Below are positions 3,705-55,535 of a stretch of DNA of 64,000 nt, one piece after another. The stretch's first letter is position 1; each line of letters starts with the position of its first letter. The translations under genes were made by a program, and so were the position numbers. The stretch spans positions 1 to 64,000 of IMG/VR virus record IMGVR_UViG_3300044799_000048; one strand, given 5' to 3'. This stretch comes from a virus. Below the pieces are notes generated by a model. The model saw only the letters and a list, made by a program, of their open reading frames with translations. It ran no database searches and was not told the origin of the DNA.

Positions 3705-3992
3705 TTAGTTGACTACTTCTTTTTCACGGTAGTATTCGTCAATGTCTTTATCATATACAGGATGCAGACAGTTTTCTAACTCGCTAACCAAATCAACTAA
3801 CCATGGGATATCATCACGAGCACGGGCAATGAAAGCGCCGTCCTTTTCGTTTCGCACATCCGCAAGCCATATATCTTCTTTTCCATCTTTACCATAGATA
3901 GTGTTTGTATTTTCATAACTCCACGGTCCCGGAGAGGCAAAAACATAGTAACTAATGATATTAGCTAATCTCTGTTTCTGTTCTTTATTCAT
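3705..3992 (-). CDS. conserved phage protein with GPW / FIARARDDIPWL motif
   Basis: A 95-residue protein. It has an N-terminal PGPW motif and a later segment FIARARDDIPWLVDLV, a combination recurring in many phage early proteins of unknown function (Ea22-like or 'HTPGPW' type). A second protein of the same broad type is at 11985-12284. It belongs to the leftward run of small genes between the HNH gene and terminase; its start overlaps the end of the preceding 40-residue ORF. Confidence 0.7.
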   Translation of the reverse strand: MNKEQKQRLANIISYYVFASPGPWSYENTNTIYGKDGKEDIWLADVRNEKDGAFIARARDDIPWLVDLVSELENCLHPVYDKDIDEYYREKEVVN

Positions 3993-4107
3993 TAATTACT
4001 GGACGCCACTTGGATGTATCTACTGGAGGACATGCTATCCAGTCAAGTTCTTTTTGTAACCCCTCAAGAAATTCTTCCCAAGTTTCATCGTCCTTGTCGG
4101 GTTTCAT
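3985..4107 (-). CDS. small hypothetical protein
   Basis: A 40-residue acidic ORF with two Trp residues (MKPDKDDETWEEF start). It sits in the leftward small-gene run; its stop overlaps the start of the 95-residue gene by eight bases, and it starts just after the stop of the Lys-rich gene upstream. No function recognised; support comes from tight packing with its neighbours. Confidence 0.5.
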   Translation of the reverse strand: MKPDKDDETWEEFLEGLQKELDWIACPPVDTSKWRPVINE

Positions 4108-4108
4108 A

Positions 4109-4252
4109 TTATTTCTTCTCCGGTTTCTTCTTAGTCAATTTCTTCTTGGGAGTACCATTGCCTAACTTACTCTGCGCAATAGCCCACGCCTTATCTTTCG
4201 GCATCCCGTTCGCTATCAACTCATCTGCTAATTTGTGCACCTTGACTGGCAT
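4109..4252 (-). CDS. small Lys-rich protein
   Basis: A 47-residue basic protein. The N-terminal part (HKLADELIANGMPKDKAWAIA) looks like a small helical domain, and the C-terminal 17 residues are mostly Lys. This shape recurs in short phage proteins often annotated next to structural genes. A second Lys-rich small protein is encoded at 15839-15982. Nucleic-acid binding is plausible from charge only. Confidence 0.55.
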   Translation of the reverse strand: MPVKVHKLADELIANGMPKDKAWAIAQSKLGNGTPKKKLTKKKPEKK

Positions 4253-4254
4253 TG

Positions 4255-4413
4255 TTATTCCTCCAACTTCACACCACAGAACGGACAGAAGTGAATAAAG
4301 AAGTCACGGATATTATCCTCTATTTCCAATAACCATCCGCGAAATTTATCGCCAGTCAATACGACATCAACAAAATCTGGCTGCCCATCACAAAAATGGT
4401 ACTTATCTGGCAT
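4255..4413 (-). CDS. small protein with C-terminal CPFCG
   Basis: A 52-residue ORF ending in CPFCGVKLEE. A terminal CPxCG knuckle is common in small phage proteins, and the same ending (CPFCGIKL) occurs two genes upstream at 4712-4969. An early Cys (position 8) may complete a zinc site. No function known. Confidence 0.55.
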   Translation of the reverse strand: MPDKYHFCDGQPDFVDVVLTGDKFRGWLLEIEDNIRDFFIHFCPFCGVKLEE

Positions 4414-4548
4414 CTAGCCTTCTGTATCCTCTACCCCAGATACTACTATCACAAACACCGACTCCCCATCCGATACCATCAGGCAGTCCTCAGTCGTGTC
4501 AACAATCGTCCAACTATGAAACTTGCTTAGGTCAATTGTGTTGCTCAT
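4414..4548 (-). CDS. small hypothetical protein
   Basis: A 44-residue acidic ORF (MSNTIDLSKFHSW start). Its first codon overlaps the stop of the upstream gene, and its stop (TAG) immediately precedes the start of the CPFCG gene. Overlap with both neighbours is the main support. No domain recognised. Confidence 0.5.
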   Translation of the reverse strand: MSNTIDLSKFHSWTIVDTTEDCLMVSDGESVFVIVVSGVEDTEG

Positions 4549-4715
4549 TCTATTACTACCCTTATCTTTCCTATACTTACACCGGAGGTTTCTTCCATCG
4601 AACCATCATCATTAAAGACTTCCTCACCCTTGGTCTCTATCCAAGGCTCAAGGTTGACTTCAACAATCTCGCCATCAACTATCCCGTCTAGTTTGTACCA
4701 ACCGTAAATTATCAT
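4545..4715 (-). CDS. small hypothetical protein
   Basis: A 56-residue acidic, probably beta-rich ORF (MIIYGWYKLDG start). Start and stop overlap the flanking genes by a few bases, typical of a translationally coupled run. No recognised domain. Confidence 0.5.
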   Translation of the reverse strand: MIIYGWYKLDGIVDGEIVEVNLEPWIETKGEEVFNDDGSMEETSGVSIGKIRVVIE

Positions 4716-4969
4716 AGTTTAATCCCGCAAAACGGACAGTGACGTACAGGGGCACCCCAATCTTTATTAAGACTTCCCATAGTATTGTAAAACCATTCGC
4801 CACCACGGTTCTCAATTCTAGCAACATCTGGCGTATACTCACACCGGTGCTCGCCTGGCTCTTCCCAACTAATCTCAAACTCGTCAGGAACCTGATCCCA
4901 CTCTTCATTAATTCCAACGTGATTCCAGTGTTCCCCCTTATACTTCGTAGCCTTAACCGTTTTCTTCAT
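4712..4969 (-). CDS. zinc-ribbon-like protein ending in CPFCGIKL
   Basis: An 85-residue protein from the chosen ATG, which is preceded by GGGAAAG; an in-frame ATG 12 codons upstream (5005) would overlap the HNH gene. It has a Trp/Glu-rich middle, one central Cys and a C-terminal CPFCG knuckle. It resembles the widespread small phage proteins with a single terminal zinc knuckle. Function unknown. Confidence 0.6.
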   Translation of the reverse strand: MKKTVKATKYKGEHWNHVGINEEWDQVPDEFEISWEEPGEHRCEYTPDVARIENRGGEWFYNTMGSLNKDWGAPVRHCPFCGIKL

Positions 4970-4992: not shown

Positions 4993-5526
4993 CTAAAATA
5001 TCCACGCATTCTCTACATCAAGATACTCAGATATGGTCTTGGTATGCATGTGTCTGTTGCAGTTTCCGCACAGACTAACACAGTTGTCAAATGAGGTCGT
5101 ACCTTCTCTTGAAATCGGAATGTCATGTGCTAGTTGTATCTCTTCAGAAGAACCACAAATTATACACGGAAATGAAAAAATAATTTCTAGTTGCTCTTTA
5201 GTAAGCGTGTCACCAGCATTCTCCTTGCGAGAACGACGCACAAGTTCATTGCCTTGCTTTATTTCCGGATGTAGTAACTTGTATATCCTGTTAGACTCGG
5301 AAAGTTTTTTGGGATTAGCAGCACGCCAATTGCGTTGGTATCCCGCAAATTTATCGAGATTGCTTCGTCTGTATTTTTCCTTTGACTCTCGTAATGATCC
5401 TATACGCCCATGCCTGTATTCTTTGTTACATGCCTTACAGTAGTAATCTAATCCGTCAGGCTGGACACGGTTCTTGTAGAACTCGGAAAATGGCTTCTCT
5501 ATGCCACACCTACTACATATCTTCAT
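4993..5526 (-). CDS. HNH endonuclease
   Basis: A 177-residue protein with two metal-binding regions. Residues C4, C7, C30 and C33 form an N-terminal zinc finger common in free-standing phage HNH enzymes. The nuclease part follows: C121-C124, H134-D135, N148, C153-C156 and H159, the order expected for an HNH fold. A strong Shine-Dalgarno (AGGAGGTG) precedes the ATG. It is the first gene of the leftward terminase block, where HNH proteins can act in packaging or as mobile homing enzymes; which applies here is open. Confidence 0.85.
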   Translation of the reverse strand: MKICSRCGIEKPFSEFYKNRVQPDGLDYYCKACNKEYRHGRIGSLRESKEKYRRSNLDKFAGYQRNWRAANPKKLSESNRIYKLLHPEIKQGNELVRRSRKENAGDTLTKEQLEIIFSFPCIICGSSEEIQLAHDIPISREGTTSFDNCVSLCGNCNRHMHTKTISEYLDVENAWIF

Positions 5527-51816: not shown

Positions 51817-52347
51817 CTAGTACGTGTATTCCAGTGTCAACATCATGACAGGAACCAACGTGCCAGAGGTCGCTGTGCTTCGGTTGAAGAACAGCGGATA
51901 CGTAGCGGGAACAGTCCCCAGAGGAGTCACCGTACTGATGGAACCCATGCTCGTCTTAACGCCACCGACCAAGGTGCCGGCTGTACCAGTGTATGTGAAC
52001 GGTGTCCCATAGGGAGTAACCGTTCCAGCAGTAGTACACGTCACTAGATCGTAAGCGTTGTACGACACGGCCGCACTAACGACGTTAGATGCAGCGGTGA
52101 GATAGGCGCCGGTCAGTACAATGGCCTTCGGTTTGACAAACAACGGAAGTCCAAGAACTCCCGCCGCGCCACTCGGAATGTAGAACTGTTCCGTGACCTT
52201 GTTGTTCGAGACTGTCTCCCCACCAGCTTCTAGGATTGCCTTGATTTCAGCGAGGTGTTGGTCAGCACAGACGTGCGGGCCAGTCCCACTGAATTCGTAG
52301 CCTAGAACCTTGGCGGTGATTGTCCCGGAGGTTGTGAAAGTTGCCAT
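51817..52347 (-). CDS. capsid decoration-like protein, copy 2
   Basis: A 176-residue protein very similar along its full length to 52356-52889: same MATFTTSGTITAK start, GPHVC-DQH, VTPYGTPF and ending MLTLEYTY. The two genes arose by tandem duplication. Small Thr/Gly-rich beta proteins beside the major capsid gene are commonly decoration proteins. Confidence 0.65.
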   Translation of the reverse strand: MATFTTSGTITAKVLGYEFSGTGPHVCADQHLAEIKAILEAGGETVSNNKVTEQFYIPSGAAGVLGLPLFVKPKAIVLTGAYLTAASNVVSAAVSYNAYDLVTCTTAGTVTPYGTPFTYTGTAGTLVGGVKTSMGSISTVTPLGTVPATYPLFFNRSTATSGTLVPVMMLTLEYTY

Positions 52348-52355
52348 GTTACCTC

Positions 52356-52889
52356 CTAGTAAGTGTACTCCAAAGTCAACAGGATGTTGGAGGTAGTTAC
52401 GCCCGAACCAGCCGTACCCTTCTGATAAAACAGGGGATACGTCGCGGGAACGGTGCCCAATGGAGTCACTGTGTTCAACGAACCCATCGAGGTCTTTACC
52501 CCACCAACCAACGTGCCCGCAGTCCCGCCCGTATAAGAGAACGGTGTCCCATACGGCGTAACAGTTCCAGCCGTAGTGAACGTCACAAGACTGTGAGTGC
52601 AGTAGTTGTCAGCGTGCCCAACGATATTGGCCGCGGCCGTGATGTAAGCGCCGGTCAACACGATAGCATGGGGTTTGACAAAGAGGGGTTGACCGATGTT
52701 AGCAGCAGCCTGGCCAAGAACGTAGAACTGTTCAGTCACCTTGTTAGCCGAAACGGTTTCGCCACCGGCCTCCAAGATAGCCTTGATCTCAGCCATGTGC
52801 TGATCGCCACACACATGCGGCCCCGTGCCAGAAAACTCGTAACCAAGAATCTTAGCTGTGATCGTTCCAGAGGTAGTAAATGTAGCCAT
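52356..52889 (-). CDS. capsid decoration-like protein, copy 1
   Basis: A 177-residue protein, paralogue of 51817-52347. It lies 11 bases after the major capsid stop. Divergence is concentrated around residues 57-100 (YVLGQAAANIGQ versus YIPSGAAGVLGL), as expected for surface variation. Confidence 0.65.
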   Translation of the reverse strand: MATFTTSGTITAKILGYEFSGTGPHVCGDQHMAEIKAILEAGGETVSANKVTEQFYVLGQAAANIGQPLFVKPHAIVLTGAYITAAANIVGHADNYCTHSLVTFTTAGTVTPYGTPFSYTGGTAGTLVGGVKTSMGSLNTVTPLGTVPATYPLFYQKGTAGSGVTTSNILLTLEYTY

Positions 52890-52900
52890 TATACCACCCC

Positions 52901-53569
52901 CTATCCCAGACTAACGCCGTGGCGAATCGCAACCATGAAGTCCTGGTTGAGAATCTTTGCCACGAACGTAGTCTTCCAGCCGATGCTTCCGCGCTGATTC
53001 AAGGGATCCTCAGCGCCGCCGCCACCGACCGGTTTGATAATCATCGACACGGGATTGACCTTCTTGCCAGTGCCAGACGAATCGCCGCCAGCCGTTGTAG
53101 CTGGAACCGACCCGAACATGTCACCAGCGAGACCGCCGATACCGTAGGCATTCTTGCCCAGGATCAACGTGGTCATCACACGTTCCGAAGATGTATTCGC
53201 CACAAGACCCAAGTCAGTCGCCCGACTCGACACGTACCAGTCAACTCCAAGCCACGTCGCAAACTTGTACGTCGCGAGAGGATTGTTCTTGCCAGGCTCG
53301 GTCGCATACAGGGCCGTGTTGATGAATGTACTGTCCTGCATGAGGTCAAATTTTGTCTTCGGATGTATGATTCCCACGTAGTTCGCGCCCTGGATCGGAC
53401 GCGCGTTGTTGGTTTCCAACGTAGACAATGCTTCCATTACTTCAGCCGCCGTCAGCGTCATCGTTCCACGAAGTGTATCGTTCGTGGTGGCGGTGGAGGC
53501 GTACTGAATTGTGGTCGCCGCGGCTAGGATGGCGCGAGTCAGTTCGTCTACTGTTAAACCAGCCTGCTC
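52901..53569 (-). CDS. major capsid protein (N4-gp56 family), exon 3
   Basis: Third and largest exon (222 codons plus stop) of a 343-residue N4-gp56-type capsid protein. It continues the reading frame of exon 2 with EQAGLTVDELTRAILAAATT, and includes NYVGIIHPKTKFDLMQDSTF, typical of the family. Taken alone it would seem to start at the internal ATG at 53461, but the 36 codons upstream are clearly capsid sequence. Confidence 0.8.
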   Translation of the reverse strand, partial: EQAGLTVDELTRAILAAATTIQYASTATTNDTLRGTMTLTAAEVMEALSTLETNNARPIQGANYVGIIHPKTKFDLMQDSTFINTALYATEPGKNNPLATYKFATWLGVDWYVSSRATDLGLVANTSSERVMTTLILGKNAYGIGGLAGDMFGSVPATTAGGDSSGTGKKVNPVSMIIKPVGGGGAEDPLNQRGSIGWKTTFVAKILNQDFMVAIRHGVSLG

Positions 53570-53597
53570 CGACCTGTTACTTTCTAACCATCGTGAT

Positions 53598-53626
53598 TTG
53601 ACAAGATTTGAGTTCTATGATATACT
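53598..53626 (+). promoter_or_regulatory. sigma70-like promoter inside intron 2
   Basis: TTGACA, 17 bases, TATACT, 29 bases before the start of the antisense endonuclease gene at 53655. It allows expression independent of the capsid transcript. Confidence 0.8.
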
Positions 53627-53654
53627 TGGTGATAATACATTATGGAGGTGTTTC

Positions 53655-54446
53655 ATGAACGTGTATGGGCGTCCAAGAAAGTGGCATATCCCCACGCGAG
53701 AACAATTGTATCAGGATTATCTTGTTGATCGTCTGTCTATTGATGAACTAAGAGATAAGTGGGGTTGCTATGAAAGTTGGGTAAAGAAATTGGGAATTCC
53801 CCTTCGGGGGTATCCAGTGAAAGATGTACAACGCAAACGATTTACACCCTCACAACTACAAATTGTGTATGGTGTCGTTCTTGGTGACGGTTATCTAAAC
53901 ATCCCCAAGGGATGTAGGTGGCCGCAACTTTCCATAGAACACTCTGTATTACAAGAAGAGTATGTTATCTGGTTAAGAGAAAAACTCGAACCATTCTCTG
54001 GAAAGTTAGAACGATATGCCGCACGCCAAAATGTGTATAAAGGAAGAACCATCTTTGGTAAGGGGTCTGTTAGGTTTAGAACGTGTGCCCATCCGGAACT
54101 ATTACCAATCTATGAAGAATGTTATCCGAATAAAGTACGTCATATTACCGCGGAACACTTAGAAAAGATGGATGCGCCGGCAGTTGCGGTTCTATTCATG
54201 GATGACGGATGTAATAGCGATCTAAATAAGGGTATTTGTTTTTCAACCGGAGAACATCCTATTGAAGAACAACGTATCCTATCAGATTGGTTTCTTTCTC
54301 AGTGGGGCCTTGTTAATACTATTAGACACCAAAAAGAATGCGGGTATCGCATTACATTCTATGGGAAAAGTGCAAGGGGACTATTAAGTTTGATTGAGCC
54401 ATACATAGCACCAAGTATGCTATACAAATTACACGGTGGCGGGTAG
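53655..54446 (+). CDS. LAGLIDADG homing endonuclease, antisense to the capsid gene
   Basis: A 263-residue protein with an N-terminal HTH-like region (TREQLYQDYL ... YESWVKKLGI) and two LAGLIDADG-type helices: YGVVLGDGY at residues 72-80 and VAVLFMDDG at 177-185. These carry the Asp residues of a single-chain LAGLIDADG endonuclease, which cuts intron-less alleles and so spreads the intron. GGAGGTG precedes the ATG; it is encoded on the strand opposite to the host gene. Confidence 0.85.
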   Translation: MNVYGRPRKWHIPTREQLYQDYLVDRLSIDELRDKWGCYESWVKKLGIPLRGYPVKDVQRKRFTPSQLQIVYGVVLGDGYLNIPKGCRWPQLSIEHSVLQEEYVIWLREKLEPFSGKLERYAARQNVYKGRTIFGKGSVRFRTCAHPELLPIYEECYPNKVRHITAEHLEKMDAPAVAVLFMDDGCNSDLNKGICFSTGEHPIEEQRILSDWFLSQWGLVNTIRHQKECGYRITFYGKSARGLLSLIEPYIAPSMLYKLHGGG

Positions 54447-54625
54447 TCAATTTCTGCTACCTCTTACAGTTCGTTTCCTGTAAGTCCAGATCATCGTTTC
54501 ACCTTACGGTGTCTTCTCGCTTGATCGTTGCTGCTGCACGCTTTCGCTGCTTGCATCGGGTAACCATCACAGGCGTTCCCGTTATTCAGAGAAGATTTAG
54601 GCTCGGCAAATTAGTTTATTCGGCT

Positions 54626-54811
54626 ACCGAGCAACTCACTCTCCTCGGTCACAATAGGATCGATGGACAGTTTGTCGATCAGGTCACTGTGCTGAATCCA
54701 CGCGCCGTACTGATCTACGGTAGCGGTGATCGCGGTCGGGCTGATACTCACGCCGATGGGGGTCACGCCTTCGGAAAGGGGCGTGGTCGCGACCGCGAGA
54801 GAACCAAACTT
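54626..54811 (-). CDS. major capsid protein, exon 2
   Basis: A 62-codon internal exon of the capsid protein, KFGSLAVATTPLSEGVTPIG through ITATVDQYGAWIQHSDLID to TEESELLG. Its ATTPLSEGVTP segment is a hallmark of the N4-gp56 capsid family. It is flanked by the two introns and restores the frame from ..TVNFR of exon 1 to EQAGL of exon 3. Confidence 0.75.
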
Positions 54812-54830
54812 CAATCTGTTACTTTAGGAT

Positions 54831-54859
54831 TTGCATATTCTCAAGAATTGTGTTATGAT
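54831..54859 (+). promoter_or_regulatory. sigma70-like promoter inside intron 1
   Basis: TTGCAT, 17 bases, TATGAT, 21 bases before the ATG at 54881. The following leader ATGGAGGTGTTT is shared with intron 2. Confidence 0.6.
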
Positions 54860-54880
54860 AGTCAATCAATGGAGGTGTTT

Positions 54881-55150
54881 ATGGTTTCAGAAACTTATTT
54901 TGTCATAACGTGTAAAAACTGCGGACACGAGGCCCACAAACCAATGGGTAGTTGGCACGATGCAGAAGTATCCGTAGAACGAGGCGGCTGGAAATTTGTC
55001 CGTGGTGCTAAATCCCTTACTGGTGATTGGTATTGTACCAATTGTCTAAGGGAGGCGGATTCTGCTGAAGATTATGCCATTCGGTGTGGATGGATGAAAC
55101 CGCCGCGCCCATCATTCTGGAAACGTATCGGTGCAGTCTTTTTTGATTGA
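54881..55150 (+). CDS. zinc-ribbon protein in intron 1, antisense to the capsid gene
   Basis: An 89-residue protein from the ATG behind GGAGGTG. CKNCGH and CTNC form a zinc ribbon; the C-terminus is basic and aromatic (PPRPSFWKRIGAVFFD). It has no HNH, GIY-YIG or LAGLIDADG motif that I can see, so its relation to intron mobility is unclear; it could be a remnant or a partner of such an enzyme. Confidence 0.6.
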   Translation: MVSETYFVITCKNCGHEAHKPMGSWHDAEVSVERGGWKFVRGAKSLTGDWYCTNCLREADSAEDYAIRCGWMKPPRPSFWKRIGAVFFD

Positions 55151-55358
55151 ATATGCAAACGGGTAGCCATTTCTGCTACCTCTCCACCTTCAAATGTTAT
55201 ACGTGGAGTTCAGAGCACATCATCATCCTTACGGATGTCTCGTCTATGCTCGTTACGCACTTCCCTTTCGGGGTTGGTTCGGTATTGCCCACTCCTGGGT
55301 GTCCACCGAGTTAGCGAGATTTTCAGATACCGTTTCCGGTATAGGCCGCTAGTTATTA

Positions 55359-55535
55359 ACGGAAGTTAACTGTAAGACCCTGATGGTCGGGAATCTGGAA
55401 GGAGCGGCCCTTCTGACCGAACTGGGCATGAACCAAGTTCGGAAGGGCACGTTCCAAGAGAGTCTTGTCATAAAACGCTGCTACCTGTTCGGCACTCCAG
55501 CCTGAAGCGCCATAGGTCTGTGTAGTTGTTGCCAT
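55359..55535 (-). CDS. major capsid protein, exon 1
   Basis: A 59-codon first exon: MATTTQTYGASGWSAEQVAA, FYDKTLLERALPNLVHAQFG and IPDHQGLTVNFR, matching the N-terminus of N4-gp56 capsid proteins (FYDKxLLERA..P). AGGAGG precedes the ATG. If unspliced, translation would end right after the exon. Confidence 0.75.

Follow-up and report, generated by a model that had tools for sequence, protein, structure and literature searches.

In mycobacteriophage LittleE, reported in 2013, a group I intron interrupts the capsid gene and carries a LAGLIDADG gene on the bottom strand, and its splicing was established by RT-PCR and protein sequencing (PMC3706429). The same paper cites an earlier capsid intron, in Tuc2009 (PMC3706429). 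In the nuclear rDNA of Didymium squamulosum, intron Dsq.L2066 carries the gene for endonuclease I-DsqI in antisense orientation within P9.2, expressed from the opposite strand (PMC9548176). The locus analyzed here lies in a stretch of 64,000 nucleotides from the viral IMG/VR record IMGVR_UViG_3300044799_000048 (hereafter the window). With LittleE (PMC3706429) and antisense genes in P9.2 of slime-mould introns (PMC9548176) already known, the arrangement in the window has precedents. As in the window, the major capsid gene of LittleE (JF937101, L134) contains a group I intron, and a LAGLIDADG endonuclease is encoded on the opposite strand. In addition, the LittleE core matches the covariance model R1 described below (E = 3e-7), and the P9.1 loop is common to LittleE and the window introns. 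However, LittleE has one intron instead of two and an endonuclease of the LAGLIDADG_3 rather than the LAGLIDADG_2 type, and its capsid gene belongs to another phage group (siphovirus, Cluster J). Dsq.L2066 resembles the window introns in being a group I intron with an antisense gene within P9.2, but it differs in its slime-mould nuclear rDNA setting, its group IE ribozyme, and its His-Cys endonuclease gene, which contains a spliceosomal intron.

The T4 introns in td, nrdB, and nrdD, with their I-Tev endonucleases, are phage group I introns whose endonuclease genes are under their own transcription control. This separate control resembles the window, whereas the endonuclease genes of T4 are in sense orientation and the host genes serve nucleotide metabolism. 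Around P4-P6, intron 1 of the window shares 42 nt at 83% identity with the record of Streptococcus thermophilus phage S3b (AF148561), a match that is not significant alone (E = 0.7). The S3b intron is a lysin-gene group I intron; unlike those of the window, it lies outside the capsid gene and is not known to have an antisense ORF of the window kind. Compared with the openly licensed PMC papers, and as far as searched, the new elements are a single capsid gene with two introns that both carry antisense ORFs, the LAGLIDADG_2 member among antisense capsid-intron endonucleases, and how widely and regularly capsid introns show the antisense layout.

The capsid gene of the window is arranged as follows.

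55359..55535, minus strand: major capsid protein exon 1 (codons 1-59, last codon CGT)
54812..55358, minus strand: group I intron 1 (547 nt, between R59 and K60)
54626..54811, minus strand: major capsid protein exon 2 (codons 60-121)
53570..54625, minus strand: group I intron 2 (1056 nt, between G121 and E122)
52901..53569, minus strand: major capsid protein exon 3 (codons 122-343 and stop)

Read unspliced, the locus contains many stops. When joined (55535-55359 + 54811-54626 + 53569-52901), the exons give 343 stop-free codons, in agreement with an initial sequence-only reading, which had described three capsid pieces in minus-strand order, connected by the joins TVNFR|KFGSL and ELLG|EQAGL into a protein of 343 residues. 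Residues 4-338 of the 343 in the joined product align to the profile of phrog_1357 (major head protein; 1.3e-51). Intronless relatives, including IMG/VR contig L001 and podophages such as Bacillus phage Pony (L006), align through both junctions with 0 indels. No further capsid gene beyond the three pieces was found when the whole 64,227-bp record was searched. Portal and terminase genes are also present in the window, consistent with a tailed phage. An intein reading of the capsid inserts was ruled out by the stops and the separate frames. After the capsid gene, positions 51817-52347 and 52356-52889 hold a tandem pair of clearly similar genes of ~176 aa, likely for a decoration or head protein that has been duplicated. 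An HNH endonuclease gene (4993-5526; PF01844, 1.2e-7), located upstream of the terminase region, is possibly a further homing gene of the window phage.

Judged from their sequence, both capsid inserts are group I introns, and they are predicted to splice. At the Rfam gathering threshold, and at E<=1 on larger stretches, neither window intron was matched. In a tight search with RF00028, intron 1 aligned end to end in the right register at a sub-threshold 20.6 bits (E = 0.0023), and intron 2 gave no match. The Rfam group I check proposed in the sequence-only reading was thus passed by neither intron at the gathering score and approached by intron 1 only. This failure is not counted against a group I identity, because the LittleE intron, which splices experimentally, and several related introns stay below the cutoff as well; for the same reason, taking a missing group I covariance match as a refutation misleads at Rfam defaults. 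We treat the RF00028 gathering score as a library threshold of low sensitivity and not as a defining biological feature. L116, a close relative of intron 1 with a similar core, clears it at 56.2 bits.

Since both window introns were missed at the curated Rfam threshold, other introns were collected via the P9.1 motif. An earlier pattern fitted intron 2 only and gave 0 matches; the corrected, gapped pattern retrieved 43 IMG/VR contigs, of which 34 were judged intron-like by eye and nine were set aside. A covariance model, R1 (85 positions covering P7-P8-P9-P9.1), was built from 26 collected phage introns, with the window left out. Using cmsearch, R1 matched intron 2 at 72.1 bits (E = 1.8e-14) and intron 1 at 53.8 bits (E = 2.3e-10), E-values that are somewhat flattered because P9.1 both belongs to the model and served as the motif for collecting the training introns. 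No other significant match occurred in the 64 kb. As controls, the LittleE intron was recovered (E = 3e-7), and 87 loci of capsid relatives without such introns gave 0 matches.

In the alignment, 98.7% of cells are paired, and two-sided changes occur in 9 of 16 pairs, a level reached by none of 500 shuffles. This covariation support spans P7, P9, and P9.1. P7 is found as GACUA/UAGUC, GAUCA/UGAUC, and GAGCA/UGCUC, with three of its five pairs covarying and the window introns contributing some of the changes. The R1 matches and the covarying helices bear out the original proposal of two group I introns within the major capsid gene. Group II introns were looked for through Rfam only, and the structure found is that of group I. 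A blast search of the intron 2 DNA against phages gave no match.

The following structural elements were assigned.

55346..55362, minus strand: intron 1 P1 over the 5' splice site (CCGTTA/TAGCGG, U.G at the splice; from sequence)
55160..55253, minus strand: intron 1 ribozyme 3' core (P7, GAGCA/TGCTC, P8, P9, and P9.1; from R1)
54829..55160, minus strand: intron 1 P9.2 (arms 55149-55160 and 54829-54840 around the antisense ORF)
54601..54632, minus strand: intron 2 P1 over the 5' splice site (7-bp GCTCGGT/GCCGAGC, U.G at the splice; from sequence)
54440..54528, minus strand: intron 2 ribozyme 3' core (P7, GATCA/TGATC, P8, P9, and P9.1; from R1)
53586..54440, minus strand: intron 2 P9.2 (arms 54432-54440/53586-53595 and 54409-54418/53622-53631 around the antisense endonuclease gene)

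In both introns, the core elements P3, P4-P6, P7, P8, and P9 follow in the right order, and the intron ends in G (omega-G). P1, P3, P4-P6, P8, and omega-G were placed by hand; for P3-P6 and P8, the by-eye placement has partial support from folding and, for intron 1, from Rfam. P9.0, also read by eye, covaries between the two introns, with AA/UU in intron 1 (A55210-A55209 with U54813-U54814) versus GA/UC in intron 2 (G54486-A54485 with C53571-U53572). By eye, P10 is weak, and most so in intron 2. The P9.2 arms are kept as inverted repeats flanking the ORF in both introns. The structural observations of the initial reading hold up: the 5' splice-site pairings with U-G are present in both introns, the common 3' intron end AAGTAACAGRTYG occurs without mismatch at the two 3' splice sites only, and the shared core is real, its best-conserved piece being P9.1.

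An ORF on the strand opposite to the capsid gene is present in each intron, together with the following elements.

53598..53626, plus strand: endonuclease-gene promoter (TTGACA-17-TATACT, extended -10)
53642..53653, plus strand: leader ATGGAGGTGTTT of the endonuclease gene (Shine-Dalgarno GGAGGTG)
53655..54446, plus strand: LAGLIDADG_2 homing endonuclease gene in intron 2 (263 aa, antisense to the capsid gene)
54830..54859, plus strand: promoter-like site of the 89-aa ORF (TTTGCA-18-TATGAT, extended -10)
54869..54880, plus strand: leader ATGGAGGTGTTT of the 89-aa ORF (Shine-Dalgarno GGAGGTG)
54881..55150, plus strand: 89-aa Cys-rich, zinc-ribbon-like ORF, antisense in intron 1

The intron 2 ORF matches Pfam PF03161 (1.2e-21) and PHROG 11023 (8e-13), shows weak similarity to I-SceI, and keeps both LAGLIDADG motif acids (D78 in LGDGYL and D184 in FMDDGC). 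Its TAG stop falls inside P9.1. Its promoter, one of the six best 11-of-12 matches in the window, was equalled or beaten by none of 2000 shuffles. The 89-aa ORF of intron 1 has two CxxC pairs and only sub-threshold zinc-ribbon matches in Pfam, where no recognisable nuclease domain was found, and it has no relatives in the phage collection. Its promoter is weaker than that of the endonuclease gene (shuffle p = 0.012). An AlphaFold model of the 89-aa ORF, made without an alignment, reached a pLDDT of 56, and the single-sequence models of both antisense ORFs were too poor for a fold search. The exact leader ATGGAGGTGTTT precedes the two intron ORFs only, as originally noticed; the ATG within it is not the start codon. 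Of the claim that each intron has an antisense ORF with its own promoter, the orientation stands for both and the promoter is convincing for intron 2. The equal standing given to the two ORFs is not supported, only the intron 2 ORF being a recognisable homing endonuclease and the 89-aa ORF lacking a relative in the phage collection. Terminator-like sites around the locus are no more frequent than in shuffles, and none was found on the plus strand.

The window locus is one of many in which related group I introns, with antisense LAGLIDADG genes, have repeatedly settled in capsid genes of the phrog_1357 type. Among the P9.1-selected introns, a LAGLIDADG ORF is antisense in 16 loci and sense in two (L108 and L123). 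A scan for relatives of those antisense endonucleases yielded 80 loci, and the best 50, corresponding to 45 non-duplicate IMG/VR loci, were analyzed for core and strand. The R1 intron core lies on the strand opposite to the endonuclease in 50 of these best 50 loci (45/45 non-duplicate), and the capsid exons lie on the intron strand in all 50. This common orientation partly reflects inheritance and not 45 independent events, because the loci were found via similarity to antisense genes. A test protein joined from the relatives' capsid exons is a phrog_1357 protein. Within the 45 non-duplicate loci, the endonuclease gene is located in L9.2 in 33 and 5' of P7 in 12, and one intron core is present in 21, two in 10, three in 11, and four in 3, with L142 holding four in a single capsid gene. 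A capsid intron with an antisense ORF, and two introns in one capsid gene, had both been called unusual at the outset; the LittleE precedent (PMC3706429) and the 45 loci show that the former is not unique, and the 24 of 45 loci with 2-4 cores show this for the latter.

Window intron 2 is not claimed to occupy the VSL|RQT site common among relatives, because it lies 9 nt upstream. At this VSL|RQT site, five contigs (L144, L145, L136, L143, and L148; L144 and L145 are the same contigs as L107 and L100) have four extra bases in the capsid frame, exactly at the intron position. The insertion reads CGTTACG, CGTTATG, or CGTTTCG before CAAAC, and the conserved RQTEDQLTRDM resumes only in the shifted frame, which may reflect a programmed frameshift, a micro-insertion, or another RNA-level correction. 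The R|[KR] site homologous to that of window intron 1 is occupied by one intron of L156. In the same L156 capsid gene, two introns have small sense-strand ORFs (4666-4466 and 4193-3957, minus strand) in the ribozyme 5' half, and one of these ORFs is Cys-rich (CxxC), recalling the zinc-ribbon-like passenger of window intron 1. The sole GTDB contig that matches the P9.1 pattern, L215 (JAGWJP010000006.1, from the Patescibacteria MAG REEB140), has two intron cores in its capsid gene and, at 3871-4779, a LAGLIDADG gene in antisense orientation, which may hint at the host of the phage group.

The antisense endonucleases of the related introns are full length and share 31-62% identity. The window endonuclease has no significant similarity to those of the 45 IMG/VR loci, and the antisense layout therefore spans several endonuclease types, namely, LAGLIDADG_1 in the IMG/VR set, LAGLIDADG_2 in the window, and LAGLIDADG_3 in LittleE. 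No close relatives of the window endonuclease were found in IMG/VR, and among phages it has distant LAGLIDADG proteins only, one of them annotated in an intein.

A promoter score of >=10 is reached within 120 nt upstream of 86% of 44 antisense genes versus 5% of shuffles, although the 44 cases are not independent observations, because the genes are related. In the relatives, the -35 element TTGACT is the antisense of the ribozyme 3' end (AAGTCAA.AAGTAATAG), and in the class with the gene on the 5' side it is the antisense of the segment directly before P7. The -35 element lies within ribozyme sequence in most of the 45 loci. The distance from the -10 element to the ATG is 6-7 nt in 34 of the 44 genes, which suggests leaderless mRNAs in the relatives. 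The window ORFs, unlike these, have a leader and a Shine-Dalgarno sequence. The L130 intron, which has no endonuclease gene, already contains the TTGACT -35 element at its 3' end, as if this ribozyme end were pre-adapted to drive an antisense gene.

We consider it highly probable that a tailed-phage capsid gene is here split by a pair of related group I introns, both with an antisense ORF and the second encoding a homing endonuclease. In the capsid transcript, each intron would fold its P3-P8/P4-P6 core and be excised by guanosine-initiated transesterification, giving the 343-aa protein. Both ORFs lie in L9.2 on the opposite strand and are therefore absent from the spliced capsid mRNA and untranslatable from it. 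The endonuclease would be read from its own host-type σ70 promoter near the intron 3' end and most likely cuts intronless capsid alleles at LLG|EQAG, where repair would spread intron 2. Intron 1 is probably no longer mobile alone, because no endonuclease can be recognised in its small Cys-rich ORF. The antisense placement most likely frees endonuclease expression from the late capsid transcript, plausibly early in infection. The sequence-only reading went further in describing the ORFs as shielded from capsid transcription, which can only be presumed; convergent transcription and antisense RNA could disturb capsid expression too, and a benign decoupling of endonuclease from capsid is not certain, because the antisense transcripts overlap upstream exons.

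The many stops of the unspliced gene and the missing Rfam gathering match in this region would also fit a dead capsid gene or mis-assembled fragments, in which the inserts are ordinary mobile genes in a broken gene, without a ribozyme. This is very improbable given that the joins are exact relative to the intronless relatives, that an independent model finds a ribozyme core with covariation, that the record holds no other capsid gene, and that dozens of contigs from other metagenomes show this layout again. Alternatively, the introns may splice while the antisense ORFs are degenerate passengers, with promoters that mainly make capsid-dampening antisense RNA. The full length of the intron 2 ORF, its two motif acids and strong Pfam match, and the retention of full-length antisense endonucleases in related introns make this unlikely as well, even though the 89-aa ORF has no relatives, antisense transcripts would span the introns and upstream exons, and a plus-strand terminator-like site was not found.

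A further alternative concerns the orientation, which might have no adaptive meaning and go back to a single chance insertion inherited by the lineage. The homology of the 45 IMG/VR endonucleases, with their partly inherited orientation, and the sense LAGLIDADG genes of L108 and L123 point that way. Antisense genes are nevertheless seen with the unrelated types LAGLIDADG_1, LAGLIDADG_2, and LAGLIDADG_3 and, within the IMG/VR family, on either side of the ribozyme core (33 in L9.2 and 12 5' of P7), which suggests several independent antisense insertions, and we find a single inherited insertion doubtful, though still deserving some weight. Returning to the reading of two spliced introns with antisense genes, our judgement is evenly poised on its broadest form. 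In this form, a widespread intron set is specialised in phrog_1357 capsids, with endonucleases almost always antisense in ribozyme peripheral loops, -35 elements encoded by the ribozyme, many leaderless mRNAs, and expression uncoupled from late capsid transcription; the window would belong to this set with two introns, an endonuclease of another type, and ORFs that have leaders.

The finding accounts for the split capsid genes of many metagenomic phages, which gene callers will mark as broken and whose introns the Rfam group I model misses in many cases. The capsid protein ranks with the most abundant products of an infection, so a capsid gene with several self-splicing introns depends on their efficient removal. 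Should antisense placement prove to have arisen more than once independently, it would be a simple way to time and dose an intron endonuclease apart from the host gene, with a single DNA segment serving as ribozyme on one strand and as promoter and stop codon on the other.
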